From Hydrogenophilales bacterium 16-64-40 (GTDB lineage Bacteria > Pseudomonadota > Gammaproteobacteria > Burkholderiales > Thiobacillaceae), in contig NCGX01000014.1 in NCBI GenBank assembly GCA_002256995.1, positions 1 through 58,745 on the forward strand: a stretch of DNA of 58,745 nt, read 5' to 3'. The position numbers and the translations under genes are program-made. Shown here piece after piece: positions 3,133 through 40,061 of this stretch. Position 1 is the stretch's first letter. Each line of letters opens with the position of its first letter. The notes under the pieces were generated by a model. That model did not search any database. It was not told where the DNA came from and saw nothing but the letters and a program-made list of their open reading frames with translations.

Positions 3133-3988
3133 CAAGCCGCTTGATGCTACCCAGTTGGAGATCATGCGGCACGTGGACCACGTGGCTCGCAGCCTCCACC
3201 TCCGCTACTTTGTGGCTGGCGCGCTGGCCCGGGTCATCCTGCTGGAGCATGTGCACGGACAAAGACCCGGCCCAGCCACACGGGATATCGATTTTGGGGT
3301 GACGGTCAAGGATTGGCCCACGTTCCAGTCCCTGAAGAATGGATTAATTGGGACAGGGGCGTTTGAATCCGCACCAGGCATTGCACAACGGCTGATTTAC
3401 ATACGCAGCATTCATCGCTCCTGGATCGATCTCGTGCCATTCGGAGGCATCGAGCAGGATGGCAGAATGATCGCCTGGCCACCTGATCGGGCCATGGTGA
3501 TGAACGTCGCCGGATTCAGCGAGGCCGCTGATGCGGCTATCGAGATCGAGATTGCTCCGGGTCTCACAATGGCGGTTGCTTCGCTTCCCTCGCTGGCCGT
3601 GTTGAAGCTCATCACCTGGCTGGATCGCTGGCCGGAAAACCGAGGGAAAGACGCCCAGGATTTCTTCCACATCCTTTCGAGATATGCAGAGGCGGGGAAT
3701 ATGGAGCGTCTATACGACTCGGAACCGGATCTGATGGCGCGGGCAGACTTCGATCCCGATCTGGCTGGCGCAGGCCTGCTCGGCAGAGAGGCCGCACAAA
3801 TCTGCCTGCCAGAAACAGCGTTGCTCATTACCCAATTGTTTTCAGACCGCAAAGCGTTTGAGCGATTTACAAGCCACATCCTCAGCGAAGTACTGATGGA
3901 TAGCGACAGTGCCAGAGCAGAAACGGTGAGGCGTTATTTGGACCTGTTCATCACCTCATTCAATGAGGGCTTGCCCAAGCCGCGATAG
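3095..3988 (+). CDS. AbiEii-like nucleotidyltransferase toxin
   Basis: A 297-residue predicted nucleotidyltransferase of the AbiEii/COG4849 kind. The catalytic signature is visible: GALARVILL near residue 42, then TRDIDFGV with the two acidic residues at about 64 and 66. Such toxins transfer nucleotides to tRNA or similar targets and act in abortive infection or plasmid stabilisation. The start at 3095 lies inside the antitoxin gene; an ATG at 3164 is an alternative but would remove conserved-looking sequence. It ends 13 bases before the lysR relic 2 begins, so the pair sits exactly between two relics. Confidence 0.72.
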   Translation: MTVIWPTLKIRPDKPLDATQLEIMRHVDHVARSLHLRYFVAGALARVILLEHVHGQRPGPATRDIDFGVTVKDWPTFQSLKNGLIGTGAFESAPGIAQRLIYIRSIHRSWIDLVPFGGIEQDGRMIAWPPDRAMVMNVAGFSEAADAAIEIEIAPGLTMAVASLPSLAVLKLITWLDRWPENRGKDAQDFFHILSRYAEAGNMERLYDSEPDLMARADFDPDLAGAGLLGREAAQICLPETALLITQLFSDRKAFERFTSHILSEVLMDSDSARAETVRRYLDLFITSFNEGLPKPR

Positions 3989-35611: not shown

Positions 35612-36240
35612 TCACGTCTCAGTGGATAACACTGACTGTGACGTCAAATCGCCCTTCAAGTTTACGCGGCCCTGGTTTATTTCCAGCCGTCCCTCGGCAA
35701 ACCAGCGGATTGCCTGCGGATAGATGCGGTGCTCCTGCTGCAGCACGCGCGCGGCCAGGGTGCCGGGCGTGTCGTCCGCCCGCACCGGCACCGCCGCCTG
35801 GATGGCGATGGGGCCATGGTCCAGATCGGCGGTGACGAAGTGCACGGTGCAGCCGTGGACCTTCACGCCCTCCGCCAGCGCGCGCTCGTGGGTTTTCAAT
35901 CCCGGGAACATGGGCAGCAGCGAGGGATGGATGTTCAGCAGGCGGCCTTCGAAGCGCGCGATGAAGGCCGCACTGAGGATGCGCATATAGCCCGCCAGCA
36001 CCACCAAATCGGGCCGGTGGCGCTCGATCTCGTCGGCCAGCAGGGCGTCGAAGGCCGCGCGCTCGGGGTGCGCGGTGTGGTCGAGCGCGATGGCGGCGAG
36101 GCCGCGCGCGCGCGCGTAGTCCAACCCCGCCGCCTGCGGCCGGTTGCTGATGACAGCGACGATTTCAATCGGCAGCGCCGCCTCGGCGATCGCCTGGAAA
36201 TTGCTGCCGCGCCCGGACAGCAGCACGACGACGCGGCAAC

Positions 36241-36244
<4 letters not shown>
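35612..36244 (-). CDS. purN: Phosphoribosylglycinamide formyltransferase
   Basis: A 210-residue PurN. It has [14 protein letters not shown] at the start, the catalytic [20 protein letters not shown] with Asn and His, and [17 protein letters not shown] with the catalytic Asp. It transfers formyl from 10-formyltetrahydrofolate to GAR. The GTG at 36244 overlaps the purM TGA (GTGA), a typical coupled start. The C-terminus extends slightly past the family's usual end. Confidence 0.94.
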
Positions 36245-37269
<1,025 letters not shown>

Positions 37270-37309
37270 ACCCGACTCCAGAATCAAAAAGTGCGGTATT
37301 TTACCGCCT

Positions 37310-39295
37310 ATGTCGACTCCCCGCCCGTTCTACCGCCCCTGGCTCGCCCTCGCCGTGCTGCTCGTCACGGGCGGCCTGATCTACCTGCTGGGACCCATTC
37401 TCACCCCCTTTCTGGCCGGCGCCCTGCTCGCCTACATCTTCGACCCGCTGGTCGACCGCCTGGAAGCGCACGGGTGGTCGCGCGCCGCCGGAACCGTTGC
37501 GGTGATCGTGCTGGCCGGACTCGCCGTCTTTGGCCTGGTCCTGATCGCCCTGCCCCTGTTTCAAGGCCAGTTTGCCGAGCTGAGCCAGCGCCTCCCGGGC
37601 GCCCTCGACCTGCTGCAAACTCGCTTCCTGCCCTGGCTGCAACAGACCTTCGGCATCGCCATCGCCCCCAATCTCGATGCGCTCAAAAGCTGGCTGACCG
37701 AACAGGCGACCGAAAACAGCGCCAACTGGCTACCCTCCCTGCAAACCGGTGCGCTTGCCGTGCTGGGCCTGGTGGTCAACCTGCTGCTGATTCCGGTGGT
37801 GATGTTTTATCTGCTGAAGGACTGGGACGTGATGGTGGCGCGCGTCGCCGCGCTGGTACCGCGCGACTGGACGGGGCGTGTCACCCGCGTCGCACGCGCG
37901 ATGGACGCGGTGGTCGGCGAATTCATGCGCGGGCAGCTGGCGGTCATGACCATCCTCGGGCTGTATCACGCCATTGCCCTGTGGGTGCTGGGGCTCGACT
38001 ACGCGCTGCCGATCGGCATTCTCACCGGACTGCTGTCCTTCGTGCCTTTTCTCGGAATCGGCTTGGGCCTGACGCTGGCCTTGCTGGTGGCGCTGTTGCA
38101 GTTTGCCGACTGGAGCGGGGTGGCCTGGGTGGCGGGGATTTTCATGGTCGGCCAGCTCTTCGAAGGCTACGTGATCACCCCGCGCATCGTCGGTGAACGG
38201 GTCGGCCTGCATCCGGTGGCCGTCATCTTCGCCCTGGCCGCATTCGGCCAGTTGTTCGGCTTTGTCGGCGTGCTGCTGGCGGTGCCGCTGGCGGCGGTGC
38301 TGCTGGTGGCGCTGCGCGAACTGCGCGGCGTATACGAGCAGAGCGACCTTTATCGCGGCGGCTATAATGCCGGCTCTTCCGATCCTGCCTCGTCTGCCAT
38401 GTCCGCCTCGCTCCTCGGCCAACCCCTGCTCGAATCGCGCATCGCTTCCCTGTCACTGGTCCATCGGGGCAAGGTGCGCGACATCTACGCCGTCGGCGAC
38501 GACAAACTGTTGATCGTCACCACCGACCGCCTGTCCGCCTTCGACGTGGTGATGCCGACGCCGATTCCCGGCAAGGGCGAGGTGCTGACCCGCGTCTCGG
38601 CCTTCTGGTTCGACAAGCTCAAGTCCATCGTGCCGAGCCAGGCGCTCGACATCGCGCCGGAAACGGTGGTCGCCGACAACGAGCGCGATCAGGTGGCCGG
38701 CCGCGCCATCGTGGTGAAAAAGCTCAAGGCGCTGTCGGTCGAGGCGATCGTGCGCGGCTACCTGGTCGGTTCAGGCTGGAAGGAATACCAGGCCAGCCAA
38801 TCGGTGTGCGGCATCGCGTTGCCCGCCGGCTTGAAGCAGGCCGAGCGCCTGCCGCAACCGATTTTCACGCCGTCGACCAAGGCGGCGGTCGGCGCCCACG
38901 ACGAGAACATCAACTTCGAGCAAATGGCCGAACTGATCGGCGCCGACCTGGCGAAGCAGGTGCGCGACGTCAGCCTCGCCCTTTACAAGGCCGCGGCGGA
39001 GTATGCGCTCACACGCGGCATCATCATCGCCGACACCAAGTTCGAATTCGGCCTCGACGAAAAAGGCCAACTGGTCTGGATCGACGAGGCGCTGACCCCG
39101 GATTCGTCGCGTTTCTGGCCGGCCGACCAGTACCAGCCTGGCAGCAATCCGTCCAGCTTCGACAAACAGTTCGTGCGCGACTGGCTGGAAGCCAGCGGCT
39201 GGAACAAGCAGGCGCCGGGACCGGAACTGCCCGCGGAAATCGTCGCCAGGACCAGCGAGAAATACCGCGAGGCGATGTCGCGGTTGCTGGGATAA
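37310..39295 (+). CDS. AI-2E family permease fused in frame to SAICAR synthase (PurC)
   Basis: One uninterrupted frame of about 661 codons. Residues 1-363 (37310-38398) are a complete PerM/AI-2E exporter-like protein with seven or eight membrane helices and the family block [20 protein letters not shown]. From 38399 the frame reads [20 protein letters not shown] and is a full Pur[41 protein letters not shown], and [19 protein letters not shown]. PurC joins aspartate to CAIR. No stop separates the two. A TATAAT at 38363 and the ATG at 38399 suggest that purC can also be expressed alone, so the parts may be separate proteins with a lost stop codon, or one membrane-tethered enzyme. ATG 37310 is chosen for the permease. 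Confidence 0.85.
38363..38368 (+). promoter_or_regulatory. purC: Possible -10 box for independent purC expression
   Basis: TATAAT, a perfect consensus, lies 31 bases before the purC ATG at 38399, within the last permease codons. No good -35 box is evident at the usual distance, and no Shine-Dalgarno sequence precedes the ATG. Confidence 0.4.
38399..39295 (+). CDS. purC: Phosphoribosylaminoimidazole-succinocarboxamide synthase (likely internal start)
   Basis: The PurC part of the fused frame taken from its own ATG. It codes 298 residues, the length usual for PurC of betaproteobacteria, and its N-terminus begins as in stand-alone relatives. It catalyses the ATP-dependent step CAIR plus aspartate to SAICAR. 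This entry marks the alternative product of the frame 37310-39295. It lies near purM, purN, purE and purK, so the purine genes are grouped but in several transcription units. Confidence 0.85.
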
Positions 39296-39311
39296 GTGAT
39301 TCGGCCCTGAC

Positions 39312-40061
39312 CTATTTCAACGTCGCATTCAGAAAATCCGCCACCGCCGCCACCATCTCGCTTTCGTGCCCAGTGAAGAAATGGTCGGCGCGTGCAATCG
39401 TCACCTGCCTTGAACCCTTGGCCGCCAGGCTCTGCTTGCGCTTGCCAGCGTTCGCCAGCACTTGCGGCAGGTCGTTGTCGCCGTACAGGTCGAGAATCGG
39501 CAGTTTCACGGCCTGGTAGTCATCGACCGAAATGCCCAGGCTCGCCCACGACTTCACCGCGGGATCGGGCCTGCCGGTCATATACGCACGGCTCATGCGC
39601 GAGCCCATGCTGTGGGACACGACGGCAATCTCCTTGTAGCCCTTGGCCTTGAGAAACGCGACCGCCTCGGCAATGCGCTCGGCGGCCTCGGGGAAAGTCG
39701 GCGGGTAGGCTTCGCCCTTGGCGTCGGCAGCGAGGATCGGCATCTGGATCGACAGGGTGGCGAAACCGCGGTCGGCCAGTTCGGTGCGCAAGGTGCCGAC
39801 CATGCCCCAGTCGGGGTGGATGCCCATGCCATGAACGACGATGGCCGCCTTGCCGGTGTCCGCCGGGATAAACAAGGTGAGGAACTTGTGGTGGCCGCGC
39901 GGCGTCTGCAGGTAGACCGGATCGCCCACCACCAGCCCGGGCACGATTTCATCCGCCCATTTCTTCTCGCGCGCATAATCCGCCACGGGCTCGGCAAGCG
40001 CCGTCAGCGAAAACAGTGCAAGCAATCCAGCGGCCAGACCCAACACCATGTTTTTCTTCAT
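39312..40061 (-). CDS. Secreted alpha/beta hydrolase
   Basis: A 249-residue protein with a signal peptide (MKKNMVLGLAAGLLALFSLT, cut near ALA). The alpha/beta hydrolase fold shows AAIVVHGMGIHPDWG as the oxyanion turn, VVSHSMGSRMS with the nucleophile Ser in SxSxG form, LDLYGDNDLPQ with the acid, and ADHFFTGHE with the His. It resembles the DUF3530-type exported hydrolases; the substrate is unknown. It is convergent with the purC frame and divergent from rpfG. Confidence 0.78.
   Translation of the reverse strand: MKKNMVLGLAAGLLALFSLTALAEPVADYAREKKWADEIVPGLVVGDPVYLQTPRGHHKFLTLFIPADTGKAAIVVHGMGIHPDWGMVGTLRTELADRGFATLSIQMPILAADAKGEAYPPTFPEAAERIAEAVAFLKAKGYKEIAVVSHSMGSRMSRAYMTGRPDPAVKSWASLGISVDDYQAVKLPILDLYGDNDLPQVLANAGKRKQSLAAKGSRQVTIARADHFFTGHESEMVAAVADFLNATLK

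Follow-up and report, generated by a model that had tools for sequence, protein, structure and literature searches.

An AI-2E-type permease and PurC in one open reading frame, with a conserved promoter-like joint, in Thiobacillus

Genes in which an internal promoter and start yield both a long and a short product are known in general, and in this article I describe a locus that seems to resemble them in carrying a promoter-like site and a start codon inside a longer frame; here, by contrast, two unrelated families appear to have been joined by the loss of a stop codon. One of these families is PurC (SAICAR synthase), an essential enzyme of purine synthesis, of which the C-terminal 298 aa of the frame is a full-length member scoring 465.1 bits against the NCBIfam purC equivalog NF010568 (cut-off 251), with best solved relatives that include 1a48, which I take to be the yeast PurC structure; the fused protein differs from other PurC in being preceded by a membrane protein of 350 aa. 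The second is the AI-2E family of transporters, which is thought to be functionally mixed (PMC7221264). Escherichia coli TqsA (7nb6, five chains), the only solved relative of the permease half at E <= 0.01, aligns with its residues 16-340 (E 3.3e-12), and the permease is likewise full-length, although it departs from other AI-2E transporters in ending in PurC instead of a stop codon and in adjoining purM divergently at 25 of the 29 loci examined in its order. A limited search of the open-access literature found no report of an AI-2E permease-PurC fusion, a domain pairing that is kept through most of one genus, and unfused, fused and permease-less genomes can here be compared side by side, the fused frame still carrying the promoter-like site.

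The fused frame and its distribution

The window, meaning the whole 58,745-nucleotide stretch that was analysed (contig NCGX01000014.1 of Hydrogenophilales bacterium 16-64-40, Thiobacillaceae), holds an uninterrupted forward ORF (37259..39295) that, read from an ATG at 37310 to a stop codon at 39293-39295, encodes 661 aa (Table 1). The first-pass annotation had proposed a full-length permease and a full-length SAICAR synthase in one frame, and this is borne out: the frame is open and both domains are complete, the permease half matching Pfam AI-2E_transport (PF01594; residues 11-338, E 7.1e-61, 206.6 bits against a cut-off of 34.3, profile positions 2-326 of 327) and the PurC half matching SAICAR_synt (PF01259; residues 384-636, E 1.6e-76, 257.6 bits, cut-off 20). 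The fused copy is the sole purC match in the window's own genome, and the dN/dS of 0.12 of the PurC half among fused Thiobacillus ORFs suggests retained enzymatic activity; the permease half, at 0.20 (45 ORFs), is also under purifying selection. Since the permease has no stop codon before purC, it would be made solely as a PurC-tailed protein.

Table 1. Coordinates of the fused frame, its joint and the neighbouring purine genes
Feature	Position	Strand	Remarks
AI-2E-family permease half	37310..38359	+	residues 1-350, complete, without its own stop codon; PF01594 at residues 11-338
Joint	38360..38398	+	residues 351-363
TATAAT, putative -10 box of an internal purC promoter	38363..38368	+	read in frame as Tyr-Asn
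PurC (SAICAR synthase) half	38399..39295	+	298 aa counted from the internal ATG; coordinates include the stop codon
purM	36241..37287	-	adjacent to the permease and divergent from it; coordinates are ORF limits, true start perhaps further in
purN	35612..36244	-	adjoins purM

The same fusion was sought in relatives, as had been suggested at first pass with a stop codon at the joint as the outcome that would count against it, in 117 genomes of the family (56 of Thiobacillus, the window's genus, 9 of the genus g28 and 52 others). Among the matches listed, 49 of the 56 Thiobacillus genomes have an open joint, namely 48 with one match across the open joint plus G002, where the joint lies in open frame and a run of N falls inside the permease; four others carry a stand-alone purC (G029, G027, G483 and G019), G018 and G022 have a PurC fragment alone and G025 has no match. 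The joint is found in 8 of the 9 g28 genomes (G496 and G498 as partial matches), with no match listed for G503, and none of the remaining 52 family genomes has a joint-spanning match among those listed, some being without any listed PurC match. Across 399 genomes of the order, joint-spanning matches are confined, among those listed, to Thiobacillus (4) and g28 (1), and no second Pfam domain turned up in ten long purC frames from other parts of the order (10 of 17 loci listed). Genomes with the fusion include T. thioparus DSM 505 (L044), and T. denitrificans RG (L068) has an N gap at the locus. Two side observations concern the identity of contigs: one fused Thiobacillus genome also holds, on another contig, a distant stand-alone purC of 62% identity (L158, G014:C36), possibly a contaminant in a genome with 4% contamination listed, and contigs labelled Rhizobium sp. 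(L050) and Sulfuriferula multivorans (L046) bear a Thiobacillus-type fusion and are probably misnamed bins.

The joint as a promoter-like site

Joints were compared over 97 loci, left from 102 under the overlap rule after five were dropped (L031 and L068 for an N gap, L062 and L069 for a stop at the joint, L103 for another frame), and these reduce to 56 joint regions that differ from one another (48 in Thiobacillus, 8 in g28); codons were counted in the 45 Thiobacillus ORFs that are distinct and full-length, after three incomplete sequences had been set aside. The TATAAT and ATG remarked on at first pass are both seen, and both are present in 56/56 distinct joints, the ATG (38399) even though neighbouring codons drift. 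Tyr352 is encoded by TAT in 45/45 ORFs, against 300 of 744 tyrosine codons elsewhere in the same ORFs, and Asn353 by AAT in 45/45, against 51 of 344. Columns with a single codon make up just 24 of 292 invariant degenerate columns; Tyr352 is the only one among 15 invariant Tyr columns, and there are two among the four invariant Asn columns, with Asn353 using the rarer AAT. Similarly, the pairwise synonymous difference (pS) falls to 0.018 at residues 350-353 versus 0.397-0.519 in the other five segments, and with this drop and the codon invariance the putative -10 box is conserved beyond coding need. The joint had earlier been read as a short peptide linker, a description that no longer suffices: its most conserved part, GGYN, looks constrained as DNA and not as peptide, and the peptide after TATAAT drifts (dN/dS 0.61).

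I infer from this that the internal TATAAT belongs to a sigma-70-type promoter, a word that rests on conservation because there is no -35 element (a consensus scan of 36900-39400 gave no -35/-10 pairs, and no -35 box at 16-18 nt) and because the extended motif has no second copy in the genome. The hexamer as a rare motif in itself was considered and rejected, with 3 found in the window versus 3.01 expected.

The same TATAAT precedes purC in four stand-alone loci (L131, L132, L153 and L133) and in four unfused ones (L062, L069, L075 and L130). L062 and L069 have the gene order of the fused loci, and their permease closes with LYRG and a stop codon (TGA or TAA), after which come AGG, TATAAT and purC, which places the stop three bases before the box; in Sulfuriferula L075 the permease stop lies >200 nt upstream of it. 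Thiobacillus reads LYRG-GYN, that is, L062 minus its stop codon, and the fusion probably arose through stop-codon loss before an existing purC promoter. In the PurC tree g28 stands apart from Thiobacillus (g1) with weak support, and the purM+purC tree is mute on one versus two origins because it has just three outgroup loci. A curiosity among the unfused relatives is L130 (G261), where at about 3266-3282 of the locus the permease stop TAA sits inside the purC TATAAT (GTA TAA T).

The first-pass annotation was also right that the joint has no Shine-Dalgarno sequence, the mean duplex energy over 48 joints being +0.25 kcal/mol versus -6.8, -5.4 and -4.1 in three neighbouring control genes. However, this absence does not count against separate expression of PurC, since the four stand-alone purC genes share this leader: all keep the TATAAT and the ATG, with a leader of 29 nt, and their leaders lack a Shine-Dalgarno as well (mean duplex -0.3), so that such a leader apparently suffices for PurC. 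Because the TATAAT and ATG are invariant, pS drops at the box and the same leader stands before stand-alone purC, free PurC is probably made from the fused locus, again without a Shine-Dalgarno. In L131, L132 and L153 purM is directly divergent from purC, the L133 contig begins just upstream of purC, and with a threshold of E <= 1e-40 PurC is the single match in G029, G027 and G483, and G019 gives two matches, both PurC. The PurC tree nests the four within the fused genus, with fused L005 inside the stand-alone group; the purM+purC tree (without L133) makes L132+L153 sister to L005 with support of 100 and places L131 apart with low support, so the permease was lost at least twice unless L005 regained it. 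L131 has what appears, by eye, to be a degraded permease start.

The permease, its orientation and its purM neighbour

Charge counts favour a permease with both termini inside, with 0.115-0.162 K+R per residue in loops assigned to the inside and 0-0.069 outside, for loop segments picked by eye in some of which D+E is similar to K+R. The substrates of PurC are cytoplasmic, which likewise favours an inside C-terminus. The cytoplasmic active site that the first-pass annotation had envisaged, should the permease C-terminus be inside, agrees with the charges of this permease, but it is set against a PhoA study, reported in PMC7221264, in which another AI-2E-family member has a periplasmic C-terminus.

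Also, within about 1.5 kb on each side, a divergently oriented purM adjoins the permease at 25 of the 29 loci examined in the order and at 6 of the 29 examined in the class (L178-L235), these being the best-scoring loci from the 34 of 60 order genomes and 40 of 75 class genomes with a match; the window's own genome is counted in the 34 and the 40 and excluded from both sets of 29, and one of the 25 (L191) has a purM identity of just 30%. Because the arrangement extends across the order loci, the link between permease and purM probably predates the fusion. From this adjacency one may suspect that this branch of the AI-2E family has some connection with purines, and the fusion adds a further hint that a poorly understood permease with purM as its neighbour is tied to purine metabolism. 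Between purM and the permease, at 37293-37307, lies a palindrome, GCGGTATTTTACCGC, with -10-like hexamers on both strands near the purM and permease starts; TATTTTACCGCC is shared by the four fused loci compared (the window's included), and the left arm varies.

What the locus may make

The explanation that I favour, and consider fairly probable on what the genomes offer, is one gene with two products, free PurC and a PurC-tailed permease. The ancestral permease gene would have ended before, or overlapped, the purC -10 box and, on losing its stop codon, would have come into frame with purC. Free soluble PurC, probably the main pool, would come from a short transcript begun at the internal TATAAT and be translated without a Shine-Dalgarno, and a longer transcript starting near the permease would extend as far as the stop codon of purC, with the result that every permease would bear PurC on its cytoplasmic C-terminus. 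The tail would be tolerated or mildly useful, and preferred over an out-of-frame tail. The tethered enzyme is probably made, and a role for its tail is a possibility only.

Selection on the fused frame is likely. In its favour are a permease that is under purifying selection yet has no way to end ahead of PurC, and the length of the spacer. The TATAAT-ATG spacer is 30 nt in 48/48 distinct Thiobacillus joints and 27 nt in 8/8 g28 joints. The four genomes without the permease have 29 nt, which is out of frame, and no other Thiobacillus joint compared shows an out-of-frame leader. Among unfused relatives the spacer measures 27 nt (L075), 28 nt (L130) and, by eye, 27 nt (L062) and 30 nt (L069), and a multiple of three can therefore occur without fusion, which slightly tempers the two-product explanation. 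As a length control, the purM-permease gap shows 4 changes when 22 tips are measured strictly (one change being an outlier of 260 nt), or 12 on 45 by a looser count against 0 on 45 for the spacer, though this gap is another kind of sequence and leader length is perhaps constrained otherwise. A one-base deletion in the joint would leave the permease with a foreign tail of median 42 aa (48 joints), and a one-base insertion with one of median 103 aa (47 joints).

The alternative that fares best, which I would call a possible but somewhat less than even prospect, is that the fusion is a neutral stop loss in which free PurC does the work and the tail is without a role, is cleaved, or belongs to a permease that is hardly expressed, with the frame persisting since few mutations can make a stop there. 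A neutral simulation expects 0.7-1.0 stop-bearing tips and gives a probability of 0.47 (0.63 with shorter branches) for no stop in any tip, which suits this alternative, as do a linker p-distance of 0.341 versus 0.355 at four-fold sites, that is, near-neutral drift, and the four Thiobacillus genomes that manage without the permease. On the same simulation, the absence of stops was rejected as evidence of selection for the fusion, being weak. Neutrality sits less well with a spacer that keeps its length in 48/48 joints while the purM-permease gap varies, with an out-of-frame leader restricted, among Thiobacillus joints, to genomes that lost the permease, and with the permease dN/dS of 0.20.

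A more ambitious version of the two-product reading, which I regard as unlikely, would make the permease a purine-pathway transporter whose oligomer displays PurC at the inner membrane face, beside its own substrate path, with a selected split between bound and soluble PurC; the permease, beside purM, would have come before purC and then fused, and the internal promoter would feed the free pool. More doubtful still is a PurC made solely or mainly as a membrane-tethered 72 kDa enzyme. The continuous frame and an internal ATG without a Shine-Dalgarno speak for it, but the TATAAT and ATG are invariant with synonymous change suppressed, and stand-alone purC genes are preceded by the same leader. 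Of the tethered enzyme considered at first pass, the part that stands is the open frame without a permease stop; given the promoter-like TATAAT and ATG that are kept, PurC is probably not made in tethered form only. Finally, a sequencing or assembly error that deleted a stop codon is refuted by other genomes: although most of those compared are draft or metagenome assemblies, 49 of the 56 Thiobacillus genomes have an open joint, and these include G011 and G024, each assembled as a single contig, and the T. thioparus DSM 505 record (L044).
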